NCBI GenBank assembly: GCA_009646425.1
Contig: WJBW01000002.1
Span: forward strand, 62,001-126,000
DNA: 64,000 nt
Direction: 5' to 3'
Source: Burkholderiales bacterium LSUCC0115
GTDB lineage: Bacteria > Pseudomonadota > Gammaproteobacteria > Burkholderiales > Burkholderiaceae_A
Shown here: piece after piece, positions 44,005 to 49,882 of the stretch
Numbering within the stretch: the first letter of the stretch is position 1
How the letters are laid out: each line of letters begins with the position of its first letter
Position numbers and translations under genes: made by a program
Notes under the pieces: model-generated
What the model was told of the DNA's origin: nothing
Databases searched by the model: none
What the model saw: the letters and a program-made list of their open reading frames with translations, nothing else

Positions 44005-44343
44005 ATGACGTCCAAAGGAGACCCAGCCGTGAACCAGTCCATCGACATCATCGAGGGCGTGCGTGACGTTCGTCAGACACCCTGCATGGCCCGTGCAGCC
44101 ATGAGCATCGCCTGGCCCTCTTTTCTATCAGCCGCTGCCCTGACCGGCCTGTTTTTCTCATCGGTTGATCCCAATGAACTCATCGTCTTCGGTCAATACA
44201 TCGACATCGGAAGGCGTGAGGCCTACGGGTTGGGCTTCATGGTCTTTTGGGGCTTTTCGGCTCTGGCCAGTGGCATGACCTATTTGTTGGCTAGACCCCC
44301 CAAGTCAGACCTGCTCTGCGGTCACTCCAACGACAATTCCTGA
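44005..44343 (+). CDS. Uncharacterised small membrane protein after ccoH
   Basis: This is a 112-residue protein that I do not recognise. It has two hydrophobic segments (about 35-52, PSFLSAAALTGLFFSSV, and about 74-93, YGLGFMVFWGFSALASGMTY) with a charged N terminus of about 30 residues. It starts 1 base after the ccoH stop and so belongs to the oxidase transcript. Its 3' end overlaps the convergent ntrC gene by 22 bases. A role in oxidase assembly or stability is a guess from context alone. Confidence 0.65.
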   Translation: MTSKGDPAVNQSIDIIEGVRDVRQTPCMARAAMSIAWPSFLSAAALTGLFFSSVDPNELIVFGQYIDIGRREAYGLGFMVFWGFSALASGMTYLLARPPKSDLLCGHSNDNS

Positions 44344-45866
44344 ATCTTTCGAGTAATCGTATTTCGGCCAACGCCCAATAGGCTGGCCGCCTCAAGGCGC
44401 TTGCCACGGGTTTTTTCCAAAGCGGTGCCATAAACCACCCGCTCGAACTCGGCTGACAGTCGATCAAACAGCTGCCCGTCGTCCTGGCCAGACCGAATAG
44501 ACGAGACCAGTTCAGCCCGCAACAACTCTCGCCAGTCGGCACCCGCCTCACCGAGCGCGGCGCCCTGCACCGGCACGGGCTGATGGCCAATCCCAGTTGC
44601 GCTGTGACCGCCCAGGGCCGGCTGCGTGCCAGGCATGCCATGGGCAGCCAGTGGTGCCGGCGTCACAGTACCGCCTACGAAGACACGCGCCGAGGCAGGG
44701 ACGCCACCGCCCATATCGCGGAACTCGGGCGGCAGGTCGGCCAGGGCCACCTGGTGGCTTGGCGCCATGACCGTGATCCAGTGACAGAGGTTTTCGAGTT
44801 GACGGACGTTGCCGGGAAACGGGTGCTGCTGGACGACCGCCATGGCTTCGGCGGAGAGCTGCTTGGACTCCACCGACAGGCTCTTGGCCGAGCGCATGAG
44901 GAAGTGCTGAATCAAGCCGGGAATGTCCTCACGGCGTTCGCGCAAGGCTGGCAGGCGCAGACGAATCACGTTGAGGCGGTGAAACAGATCCTCTCGAAAC
45001 TTGCCCTCGGCCACCCGTTGCTCCAGATTCTGATGGGTGGCGGCAATGACCCGGACATTGGACTTGAGGGCCTGCTGACCACCCACCCGGTAATACTGGC
45101 CGTCCGACAGCACCCGCAGGAGTCGAGTCTGCAGGTCCAGGGGCATGTCACCAATCTCATCCAGAAAAAGGGTGCCACCATCGGCCTGCTCAAACCGCCC
45201 CTTGCGAGTCGCCTGAGCGCCGGTGAACGAGCCGCGCTCGTGGCCGAAGAGCTCGGACTCCAACAAGTCATGCGGAATGGCAGCCGTGTTCAGCGCCACA
45301 AAGGGCTTGTCAGCCCGTGGGCTGTGACGATGCAAGGCATTGGCCACCAACTCCTTGCCCGAGCCAGACTCGCCCGTGATCAAGACGGTGGCGGATGACT
45401 GAGACAGCCGGCCAATGGCACGGAAGACCTCCTGCATGGCTGGGGCCTGCCCCAACATCTCCAACGGCACTTCGACCGCAGCCGACCGAGCCGGCCCATC
45501 GCCTGCAGACTCCTTGACCGCGCGTTGAATCAGGGCGGTTGCCACATCAATGTCAAAAGGCTTGGGAAGGTACTCAAAGGCGCCGCCCTGAAAGGCATTC
45601 ACCGCACTGTCCAGGTCACTGAAGCCCGTCATGATGATCACGGGCAGGTCGGGCAGTCTGGCCTTGACCTTCTCAAGCAGTTCCAGACCGGAGTCCCCAG
45701 GCATGCGAATGTCGGATACCAGGACCTGCGGAGTGTCCTCTTGCAAGGCCCGCATGGCGTCATTGGCCGACTCAAAGAGCCTGACCGGCAACTGGGCACG
45801 GCTCAGTGCCTTCTCAAGTACCCATCGAATCGATGCATCGTCATCCACAACCCAGACTGGCTTCAT
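44322..45866 (-). CDS. ntrC: Nitrogen regulation response regulator NtrC
   Basis: This sigma-54 activator is phosphorylated by NtrB. It has 514 residues. The receiver domain has [14 protein letters not shown] and the phospho-Asp in [10 protein letters not shown] near 54. The AAA domain has [14 protein letters not shown] near 172 and [14 protein letters not shown] near 236. The sigma-54 contact loop reads GSFTGA instead of the common GAFTGA. A Fis-type helix-turn-helix ends it ([19 protein letters not shown]). It follows ntrB by 18 bases and converges on the cco cluster. Confidence 0.95.
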
Positions 45867-45884: not shown

Positions 45885-46961
45885 TCAGAGACGCATGGGG
45901 TCACCAATTGGTAACAAGATCTGAAACGAGGTTCCACTGCTGTCGGACTTGCAATCAATGGCTCCACCATGCTGGTGCACTATCGTCTGAGCAATAGTCA
46001 GGCCAAGTCCGTGACCTTTTGGGTTACCAGACACCAAGGGGTAGAAGATTTCGTCCCGGATGGCCTGAGGAATCCCTGGCCCGTTGTCGGTAATGCTCAG
46101 GGCGAGCGCCAACCGATAGCGTTGCCGATGCAGGGTCACCTGTCGCGCCGCGCGCGTTCTCAGGATCACCTCACCAGTCTGGTGCGAACGCGCAGGATCC
46201 GTGATGGCCTGAGCTGCGTTGCGCACGATGTTGAGCACCAACTGAATCAGCTGCTCTTGGTCCGCCTGAACCTCTGGCAGGCTGATGTCGTAGTCCCGAC
46301 GAATGCTCAGGCCTTGAGTAAATTCCGAGAGCACCAGGGTGCGAACGTGCTCCAGCACCTCGTGGATGTTGACAGGCGAACGGGTCAGTCGGCAACGCAC
46401 AGGCGCCAGCATGCGATCCACCAGGCCCTGCAGCCGGTCCGACTCCTTGATGATGATCTGGGTGTACTCGCGAAGCTCGTCCGTCGGCAACTCCGCATTT
46501 AACAACTGTGCCGCACCACGAATACCACCCAGTGGATTCTTGACCTCATGACCCAGGTTACGAAGCAGCGACTGGTTCATTTGCTGCAAGACCGCCTGAC
46601 GCTCCTCTCGGTCAATCCGAATCAGGGCGTCGTTGTCCCGAAGCTCAATAGAGGCCAGCAGACCTGGCTCATCCAGACCCAAGACGGTGGTCTCGAGTGG
46701 CTCGTCATCGGGCTCTGCATTGGCTGAGCGCCAGACCACCTGCATGCGTCGAACCGTCAGGCTTCTCTCCTGTGCATCTCGCAGCACCTGGTCCACCTCG
46801 TTGGGGTTGGCCAGCAAGTCACGCAGGTGTTGGCCCACCAAGACCTGGGCTGACTGACCCAACAACGCCTCGGCGGCCGCATTCACGCGTGAGACCCGAC
46901 CGTCTGTCGCAATCAACAGAACGGCCGTGGTCAGCAGGTCAAAGGGGTGGGGTTCTCGCAT
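45885..46961 (-). CDS. ntrB: Nitrogen regulation sensor kinase NtrB
   Basis: This soluble histidine kinase is controlled by PII and phosphorylates NtrC when nitrogen is scarce. It has 358 residues: PAS domain (about 1-110), the H-box LGHEVKNPLGGIRGAAQLL (about 137-155), N-box NIVRNAAQAI, and G-boxes DNGPGIP and GHGLGLTIAQTIVHQHGG. The ATG at 46961 directly follows the glnA terminator and has no purine-rich ribosome site, so its expression may be unusual. There is no membrane segment, as expected for NtrB. Confidence 0.95.
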   Translation of the reverse strand: MREPHPFDLLTTAVLLIATDGRVSRVNAAAEALLGQSAQVLVGQHLRDLLANPNEVDQVLRDAQERSLTVRRMQVVWRSANAEPDDEPLETTVLGLDEPGLLASIELRDNDALIRIDREERQAVLQQMNQSLLRNLGHEVKNPLGGIRGAAQLLNAELPTDELREYTQIIIKESDRLQGLVDRMLAPVRCRLTRSPVNIHEVLEHVRTLVLSEFTQGLSIRRDYDISLPEVQADQEQLIQLVLNIVRNAAQAITDPARSHQTGEVILRTRAARQVTLHRQRYRLALALSITDNGPGIPQAIRDEIFYPLVSGNPKGHGLGLTIAQTIVHQHGGAIDCKSDSSGTSFQILLPIGDPMRL

Positions 46962-47044: not shown

Positions 47045-48457
47045 TTAGATCGAGTAGTACATGTCGAACTCAACCGGATGGGTGGTCATGCGGAAACGCG
47101 TGACTTCTTCCATCTTGAGGTTGATGTAGGCATCGATCATGCCGTCGGAGAAGACACCACCGCGGGTCAAGAACTCGCGGTCTTTGTCCAGACACTCCAG
47201 GGCCTGATCCAAGGAGGAACAGACGGTGGGGATCTTGGCATCTTCTTCGGGTGGCAGGTCGTACAGGTTCTTGCTGGCAGCCTCGCCCGGGTGGATCTTG
47301 TTCATCACACCATCCAGACCAGCCATCAACAGCGCCGAGAAGGCCAAGTAGGGGTTGGCCGTGGGATCTGGGAAGCGCGCCTCGATACGACGGGCCTTGG
47401 GGCTGGCCACGTGGGGAATCCGGATGGAGGCAGAACGGTTCCGTGAGGAGTAGGCCAGTTTGACCGGCGCCTCGAAGCCAGGCACCAGACGCTTGTAGGA
47501 GTTGGTACCTGGGTTGGTGATGGCGTTCAGGGCACGGGCGTGCTTGATCACACCACCGATGTAGTACAGGGCGAACTCAGACAGGCCGGCATAGCCGTTG
47601 CCAGCAAACAGGTTCTGGCCGTCTTTCCAGACCGACTGGTGAACGTGCATGCCGGAGCCGTTGTCACCCACCAGAGGCTTGGGCATGAAGGTCGCCGTCT
47701 TGCCATAGCTGGCTGCCACGTTGTGCACGACGTATTTGAGGATCTGGGTCCAGTCAGCACGCTGAACCAGGGTGGAGAACTTGGTACCGATTTCGCACTG
47801 GCCAGCACCGGCCACCTCGTGATGGTGGACCTCAACGGGCACGCCCATCTGCTCCAGAATCAGACACATTTCCGAACGGATGTCCTGGAAGGAATCAACG
47901 GGGGGAACGGGGAAGTAACCGCCTTTGACAGCAGGACGGTGACCCAGGTTGCCGCCGTCGTAGTCGGTATTGGTCGACCAGCTGGCCTCTTCGGACTTGA
48001 TCTTGACGCCGCTACCAGACATATCGGCAAACCAGGTCACGCCATCAAAAATGAAGAACTCTGGCTCCGGGCCGAAGTAGGCGGTATCACCCAGACCGGA
48101 GGACTTCAGGAAGGCCTCAGCGCGCTTGGCGATCGAGCGGGGATCCAGGTCGTAACCCTTGCCATCAGATGGCTCGATGACATCACAAGTCAGGATCAGG
48201 GTGGACTCTTCGCGGAAGGGGTCCATCACAGCGGTCGAAGGATCGGGCATCAGCAGCATGTCAGAGGCTTCAATGCCCTTCCAGCCAGCGATCGAGGAGC
48301 CATCAAAGGCATGACCGGATTCAAACTTGTCTTCGTCTACCTGGTGGTGAGGCACCGATACGTGCTGCTCTTTTCCACGGGTGTCCGTGAAACGGAAGTC
48401 GATGAACTTGACCTCGTTGTCCGAGATCATTTTCAAGACGTCTTTGGGTGTAGCCAT
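47045..48457 (-). CDS. glnA: Glutamine synthetase, type I
   Basis: This enzyme makes glutamine from glutamate, ammonia and ATP. It has 470 residues, full length. Signatures are [20 protein letters not shown] (about 51-70), the metal and ammonia site [16 protein letters not shown] near 209, [18 protein letters not shown] near 263, and the adenylylation tyrosine in NLYDLPPEE near 398, so control by GlnE is likely. A sigma-54 promoter with three NtrC sites lies upstream and a strong terminator downstream. Confidence 0.98.
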
Positions 48458-48518
48458 CGCTAAGCTCTCCTGATCGCAAAATGAGTAAGTCGAAAAATAG
48501 AAGGTACGGCTTTAAAGA

Positions 48519-48534
48519 TGCATGAAACATGCCA
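48519..48534 (-). promoter_or_regulatory. Sigma-54 promoter of glnA
   Basis: On the minus strand TGGCATGTTTCATGCA matches the sigma-54 consensus TGGCACG-N4-TTGCA at all but two defined positions. The essential GG (48532-48533) and GC (48520-48521) are at the required 10-base spacing. The predicted start is near 48508, about 50 bases before the ATG. Confidence 0.88.
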
Positions 48535-48585
48535 ACCGAAAAACGACCAGTGAGAGCGCATTCTGCGCCAGACGCACCCTTTTAA

Positions 48586-48602
48586 TGCATTAATATGGTG
48601 CA
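48586..48602 (-). promoter_or_regulatory. NtrC site 1 upstream of glnA
   Basis: TGCATTAATATGGTGCA matches the NtrC consensus TGCACY-N4-TGGTGCA with one or two differences. Its centre is at about -86 relative to the predicted sigma-54 start. Confidence 0.8.
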
Positions 48603-48605
48603 TAT

Positions 48606-48622
48606 TGCACTATATTAGTGAT
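48606..48622 (-). promoter_or_regulatory. NtrC site 2 upstream of glnA
   Basis: TGCACTATATTAGTGAT has a perfect left half-site and a weaker right half. Its centre is exactly 20 bases from site 1 and 20 bases from site 3. Confidence 0.7.
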
Positions 48623-48625
48623 TAT

Positions 48626-48642
48626 TGCACTTTAGTTGTGCA
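48626..48642 (-). promoter_or_regulatory. NtrC site 3, overlapping the hemW stop
   Basis: TGCACTTTAGTTGTGCA differs from the NtrC consensus at one defined base. It is centred about 126 bases before the predicted start. Its right half contains the last codons and stop of hemW (48632 onwards), so the operator and the coding sequence share bases. Confidence 0.82.
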
Positions 48643-49882
48643 AAAAGAGCTCTTGCAGGTCGTTGAGGAAATCCAGCCCTTTGGCAGAGGGACGCCAGTA
48701 TGATACATCCGCTGACAAGAGCCCTTTGGCCACCGCCTGCTGCACACCGGGCAAGACCGTCTCCAAGGGCAGGCCGGTGCGCTCCCGGTACAAAGCGGGG
48801 GAGAACCCCTCTACCAGACGCAGACCGTTGAGCATGAACTCAAAAGGCAGTTCACTTGGTTCAACGGCTACCCGTCGTCGATGAGAGCCATCGCGCCGAG
48901 CCACCGCAGCCATGTAATCCTGCGGTCGACGCAGACAGTTGTGTCGACTGACCGTTAAGCCTGCACCGATGGGGCCCGGGATGGGGTTGGCGATGGGATC
49001 CACGGCGGTATTTGTGCTCTGTGCTGAACCGGATGTATCGGCATGGGCACTGAGCTTGCTGTGAGCCCCCGCACCAATACCCAGGTAGTCGCCAAACTGC
49101 CAATAGTTCAGGTTGTGGGCGCAGCGCTGACCCGGCTTGGCGTAGGCCGAGACCTCGTAGCGTTCAAGTCCTGCCTGGGCCAGTTGGTTCATCAAGGCCA
49201 ACTGCATGTCGTAGATCAGATCGTCTTCCGGCAGCACCGGCGGCTTGTTGGCGAAGACCGTATTAGGTTCGATGGTGAGCTGATAGAGCGAGAGGTGTCC
49301 CACACCCAGCGAGAGACCCATTGCCAGGTCATCGCAGGCCATCTGGAGGGTCTGACCTGGTAGGCCATACATCAGGTCCAGGTTGACCCGATCAAAGACC
49401 TGGGTGGCCTGCATCACCGCATTCTGCGCCTGCTCTACTGTGTGGACCCGCCCCAAAGCCGCCAAGCTCTGCGCATGGAAAGACTGCACGCCCACCGAGA
49501 GTCGATTGATGCCCGCCTGTCGATAGCCCAGCCAATCAGCCTGATCCCGCCCTGCCCCCGGATTAGCCTCCATGGTGACCTCGATACCAGGCAGCCAAGC
49601 CAAGCGAGCACGGCAGCCTGCTAGCAATTGGTCGATGGCCTGGGGCGAGAAGACATTCGGCGTGCCACCACCAATAAAAACTGCAGAGATTGCGCGCCCC
49701 CAGACCAAGGGCAAGGCCTGCTCGAGATCGGCCAAGAGCGCTTCGATGTATTGCTGCTCAGCGCTGACCAGGTCGAGCCCGTCTCGCGAGAGGCCATCGA
49801 GGCCATGGGAATTAAAGTCACAGTAAGGACACTTCTGCACACACCACGGCAGGTGGATATAGAGCGTCAGGCTACCGGTCAA
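48632..49882 (-). CDS. hemW: Radical-SAM heme chaperone HemW
   Basis: HemW carries heme to respiratory proteins; it is often mislabelled as coproporphyrinogen oxidase. It has 416 residues. The radical-SAM cluster motif is LPWCVQKCPYCDF (about 11-23), with the extra binding stretch AVFIGGGTPNVFSP near 70. HemN's N-terminal extension is missing, which supports HemW. It is the last gene of rph–rdgB–hemW. Its final codons overlap an NtrC site that serves glnA. Confidence 0.93.
   Translation of the reverse strand: MTGSLTLYIHLPWCVQKCPYCDFNSHGLDGLSRDGLDLVSAEQQYIEALLADLEQALPLVWGRAISAVFIGGGTPNVFSPQAIDQLLAGCRARLAWLPGIEVTMEANPGAGRDQADWLGYRQAGINRLSVGVQSFHAQSLAALGRVHTVEQAQNAVMQATQVFDRVNLDLMYGLPGQTLQMACDDLAMGLSLGVGHLSLYQLTIEPNTVFANKPPVLPEDDLIYDMQLALMNQLAQAGLERYEVSAYAKPGQRCAHNLNYWQFGDYLGIGAGAHSKLSAHADTSGSAQSTNTAVDPIANPIPGPIGAGLTVSRHNCLRRPQDYMAAVARRDGSHRRRVAVEPSELPFEFMLNGLRLVEGFSPALYRERTGLPLETVLPGVQQAVAKGLLSADVSYWRPSAKGLDFLNDLQELFLHN

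Follow-up and report, generated by a model that had tools for sequence, protein, structure and literature searches.

The glnA enhancer is a model for bacterial gene activation at a distance. In the E. coli glnALG operon, the sigma-54 element of glnAp2 is preceded by two strong tandem NtrC dyads, which are 32 bp or three helical turns apart and lie roughly on one face of the DNA. Two DNA-bound NtrC dimers recruit further subunits to give the active hexamer, and NtrC also represses E. coli glnAp1. The required number and spacing of NtrC dimers are known mainly from this enteric three-turn arrangement. The usual glnA enhancer of Burkholderiales is of the same kind; among 34 genomes from families of the order other than the one described here, a dyad pair is found 30 bp apart in 20 and 31 bp apart in 9 (29/34), and the typical centres in these 34 families are at about -127 and -97, i.e. 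three turns. In Burkholderia cenocepacia, a member of this order, glnA is strongly NtrC-dependent (PMC5491218). A search of the open-access literature turned up no account of NtrC arrays with two-turn spacing.

The locus described here comes from a 1.84-Mb Burkholderiales genome (G000, of genus g1, in the genome comparison) and was analysed in a 64-kb window, the whole stretch of DNA under study, with a GC content of 60%. It carries a geometric variant of the textbook NtrC/sigma-54 enhancer, and the geometry is lineage-specific to one small Burkholderiales family. The genes hemW, glnA, ntrB and ntrC, assigned with NCBIfam models above cut-off, follow each other in this order on the minus strand, and the features are as follows.

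48632–49882, minus strand: hemW, radical SAM heme chaperone (TIGR00539 above cut-off), the upstream neighbour of glnA on the same strand
48632–48634, minus strand: hemW stop codon TAA, read from the sequence, within the distal dyad and preceded by the codons TTG CAC AAC
48626–48642, minus strand: distal NtrC-like dyad, centre -126 (16.0 bits, rank 2 in the window), holding the last hemW codons and the stop; plus strand TGCACTTTAGTTGTGCA, minus strand TGCACAACTAAAGTGCA
48606–48622, minus strand: middle NtrC-like dyad, centre -106 (12.0 bits, rank 7 in the window); plus strand TGCACTATATTAGTGAT, minus strand ATCACTAATATAGTGCA
48586–48602, minus strand: proximal NtrC-like dyad, centre -86 (19.0 bits, rank 1 in the window); plus strand TGCATTAATATGGTGCA, minus strand TGCACCATATTAATGCA
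48573–48589, minus strand: fourth NtrC-like dyad, centre -73, TGCATTAAAAGGGTGCG (15.3 bits, rank 3 in the window)
48519–48534, minus strand: sigma-54 -24/-12 element TGGCATGTTTCATGCA (TGGCATG-TTTC-ATGC-A), predicted start near 48508
47045–48457, minus strand: glnA, type I glutamine synthetase, the predicted controlled gene (TIGR00653 above cut-off)
45885–46961, minus strand: ntrB (glnL), sensor kinase (NF008293 above cut-off)
44322–45866, minus strand: ntrC (glnG), 514 aa (TIGR01818 above cut-off)

Because ntrB and ntrC adjoin glnA and rpoN is encoded elsewhere in the same genome, the predicted identity of this region as an NtrC/sigma-54 enhancer of glnA is secure by homology. Taken as a whole, the locus is very probably an NtrC-dependent enhancer of the glnA-ntrB-ntrC operon that takes the form of a re-spaced three-dyad array. 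Its operon, dyad type, sigma-54 element and tandem upstream dyads placed roughly on one face are shared with E. coli glnALG, but where glnAp2 has two strong dyads 32 bp apart, here there are three with 20-bp steps and a weak middle one. Gene, promoter and a distal site near -127, the common position across the order, are likewise shared with the usual Burkholderiales enhancer, whereas the 30–31 bp dyad pair, typically at -127/-97, is replaced here by -126/-106/-86. The main dyads are thus 20 and 20 bp apart, with 40 bp between the outer pair, instead of the 30–32 bp of a three-turn two-site enhancer.

The initial annotation had described three NtrC sites at exact 20-base steps ahead of a near-consensus sigma-54 promoter, and for this genome the sequence bears it out. 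The dyads start at 48586, 48606 and 48626, in steps of exactly 20, and a GG-N10-GC element of the -24/-12 type lies upstream of glnA at 48534–48519, so placed that the start predicted near 48508 puts the dyad centres at -86, -106 and -126. All three are tandem dyads of the TGCACYA-N3-TRGTGCA type and lie upstream of this start in the range expected for a glnA enhancer, roughly 70–200 bp, and at 10.5 bp per turn their centres spread over about 70 degrees, which agrees with the proposed phasing on roughly one face. The consensus given for them, TGCACY-N4-TGGTGCA, was correct in position but is only approximate, with 1, 3 and 1 mismatches and no exact match. The sigma-54 element is identical throughout in G000 and its nearest relative, G002, and the flanking block is also kept in G002. 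The fourth dyad at 48573–48589, which had been missed, follows the proximal dyad at a 13-bp step and overlaps it by 4 bp, sharing TGCA; the -73 and -86 dyads are probably not occupied together. It is absent from G002 and from other genus members, and may have arisen by chance. Steps of 13 bp like that of -86/-73 also occur in G039, G052, G431 and G480.

Comparison with related genomes shows that a near-two-turn ladder is kept within the genus. The exactness of the 20-base step, however, does not extend beyond this genome, as the steps of its relatives are 19–20 and then 20–23 bp. In genus g1, the -126/-106/-86 arrangement of G000 recurs in G002 (with -85) and G005 (with -107), its outer sites recur in G004 and G010, and a similar ladder lies further upstream in G008 and G009. 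In the same family, genus g2 has sites at -157/-118/-96, and genus g3 has weaker sites, mostly half-sites, with 20-bp steps. Three full dyads at exactly 20/20, with up to three mismatches allowed, were found in 1 of 399 Burkholderiales genomes, namely this one, in a search whose pattern leaves out the relatives' steps of 19, 21 or 22. Counted as pairs, a spacing of 19–23 bp is present in 11 of the 20 family genomes versus 5 of 64 others (Fisher p=2e-5), one of 28–34 bp in 3/20 versus 48/64 (p=2e-6), and one of 38–42 bp, the commonest in the family, in 13/20 versus 6/64 (p=2e-6); these p-values overstate the evidence because genomes of one family are not independent. Half-site pairs counted without the matrix give the same division, at 19–22 and 40 bp in the family and 30–31 bp in the rest of the order, each far above shuffles. 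Among 30 class members outside the immediate group, counted by eye, 21 have a 29–33 bp pair and 5 a 19–22 bp pair; two-turn spacing is therefore unusual, yet it arose more than once. Sporadic 19–22 bp pairs of this kind occur in G417, G442, G449 and G480, which share with the sister genera g2 and g3 a dyad spacing of about two turns upstream of glnA, but have two or three sites only, in a geometry other than that found here. Tandem duplication as the origin of the ladder was rejected, since TRF detected no tandem array and unit identity is only 12–13/20.

Upon nitrogen limitation, NtrB would phosphorylate NtrC, and NtrC~P dimers would occupy the two strong outer dyads at -126 and -86, four turns apart. 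The weak middle dyad at -106 might then be filled with the help of contacts to both neighbours, and the three dimers, on roughly one face of the DNA, would form or seed an AAA+ hexamer. DNA looping would bring this hexamer into contact with the sigma-54 RNA polymerase on the -24/-12 element, where it would open the promoter. In evolutionary terms, the family would have started from the order's common enhancer, with two sites three turns apart, and shifted its spacing to steps close to two or four turns; within this genus the distal site would mostly have stayed at -126, over the 3′ end of hemW.

The comparison also bears on the occupancy of the middle site. With its promoter-proximal half, RGTGCA, the middle dyad is a good match in G000, G002, G003, G004, G005 and G010, while its other half has degenerated more in some of these than in others; in G003, G004, G007 and G010 the middle site is a half-site or undetected, and three-dimer occupancy is therefore not required genus-wide. 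It is conceivable, although we hold it the less probable reading, that activation depends on the outer pair at -126/-86, 40 bp or four turns apart, and that the dyad between them is a site in decay or a half-site due to chance. The scores of the outer dyads (16.0 and 19.0 bits versus 12.0 for the middle one) are consistent with this, as are G004 and G010, in which only the 40-bp outer pair exceeds 5 bits, and G007, which has a 40-bp pair and no middle site; 38–42 bp is also the prevailing spacing of the family, and a 39-bp pair stands at the torF-glnK-amtB promoter of the same genome. On the other hand, G003, G004, G005 and G010 retain the RGTGCA half of the middle site close to the expected register, and G008 and G009 have a strong middle site (16 bits). 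The middle site may be a weak one filled cooperatively, or what is left of a site inside a four-turn outer pair. The torF-glnK-amtB promoter (G000:C9, L176 1480–2830), a second predicted NtrC/sigma-54 promoter in this genome, precedes genes for a TorF-family porin, GlnK and AmtB; its two dyads, each scoring 16.5 bits, lie at about -145 and -106, a distance of 39 bp, and its sigma-54 element is TGGCACG-N4-TCGC.

That the dyads are a chance cluster, or sites of another regulator binding TGCAC-N7-GTGCA, is scarcely credible, even though single sites at the tolerance of the initial annotation occur at chance frequency. With up to three mismatches, its consensus has 49 matches in the window versus 51.8 ± 9.3 expected from shuffles; this is no enrichment, so that single-site evidence at this tolerance is nil and significance rests in the array. 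Two Markov models, each used to simulate 2 Mb of sequence, produced no triple with 19–22 bp steps, while strict TGCAY-N7-RTGCA occurs five times in the 1.84-Mb genome, twice at this array, and its control pattern not at all. Dyads upstream of glnA are moreover conserved across the class, E. coli included. The matrix behind the bit scores and ranks has 17 positions and derives from 62 sites in front of glnA in the order's other families, picked at 29–32 bp spacing, which is a reservation about it; as a positive control, it places the sites of E. coli glnA at -140 and -108. It is also unlikely that some of the dyads serve in repression, whether through competition of NtrC at -86/-73 or because NtrC, as at E. 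coli glnAp1, stops readthrough or a hidden sigma-70 promoter in the hemW–glnA interval. The overlapping -86 and -73 dyads should exclude each other, and similar 13-bp overlaps exist in G039 and G052; however, a search of the array region found no sigma-70-like promoter, the -73 dyad is missing in G002 and other congeners, and the dyads lie too far upstream for blocking the sigma-54 promoter. A search of the glnA leader for a riboswitch or other RNA family found none. Elsewhere in the genome, an isolated strict dyad, TGCACTCTTGTCGTGCA (14.3 bits; G000:C2:165863, L138 1501–1517), falls inside a long ORF of the opposite strand; it precedes a TAXI-type TRAP transporter gene by about 330 bp and is probably due to chance.

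NtrC itself varies in the linker between its AAA+ and HTH domains, measured from the PGNVRQL to the RNT motif. The linker has 141 aa here and 93 in E. coli by the same measure, the latter together with the 32-bp dyad spacing. It is 87–94 aa long in 21 genomes, in 19 of which the best dyad pair is at 30–31 bp, and 103–175 aa long in 42 genomes, where 30–31 bp is the best pair in 3 and three or more dyads are present in 20. Outside the order, G431 has a long linker (112) and no 30-bp pair, while G449, with a short linker (93) and a 20-bp step, is an exception to the association and excludes a long NtrC linker as a necessity for 20-bp spacing. The 30–31 bp geometry thus appears to track short-linker NtrC, but in a way confounded by ancestry: genomes with this arrangement mostly form one group in the GlnA tree, and the association may go back to one split in their history. 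That enhancer geometry co-evolves with NtrC, long linkers (103–175 versus 87–94 aa) releasing the strict 30–31 bp two-dyad enhancer into arrays that step by two, three or four turns and hold as many as three or four dyads, the 20/20 ladder included, is a hypothesis and a rather doubtful one; if it is true, all three dimers of the hexamer could be DNA-bound in the 20/20 ladder. This possible linker connection and the spacing series are the parts worth following. A natural series of two, three and four turns, in many cases at a fixed promoter distance and with varying linkers, would permit a direct test of the spacing rule.

The distal site includes the hemW stop codon, as had been noted, with TAA at 48634–48632 inside 48626–48642. 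The further claim that operator and coding sequence constrain each other is right as to the overlap, but the constraint is slight and loose, since stop placement varies and the HemW tail is tolerant. Of the 10 genus members, 6 (G000, G002, G004, G005, G009 and G010) have the stop within the distal dyad, and the others have it elsewhere. hemW-glnA adjacency was considered as a family-specific trait and rejected; it is also found in families f4 and f10, and predates the family. LFLP or LFLA is the C-terminus of most other HemW proteins, whereas the half-site TGCAC, written xTG CAC, encodes Leu-His (or Met-His) at the end. In the loci that were read, His at this position of HemW is confined to genus members, three LFLH cases tallied under other genomes being taken for further copies of this one (L136, L137 and L173), and those genus members that retain Pro carry TGCCC, a weaker half-site. 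The operator therefore appears to have drawn one substitution in a tolerant tail, a small, readable case of an operator half-site arising within the 3′ end of a coding sequence. In G003, hemW has lost the usual stop; its reading frame crosses two NtrC sites and terminates within the third one, giving the C-terminal tail ...NKPKKSKLVQIVAQ.
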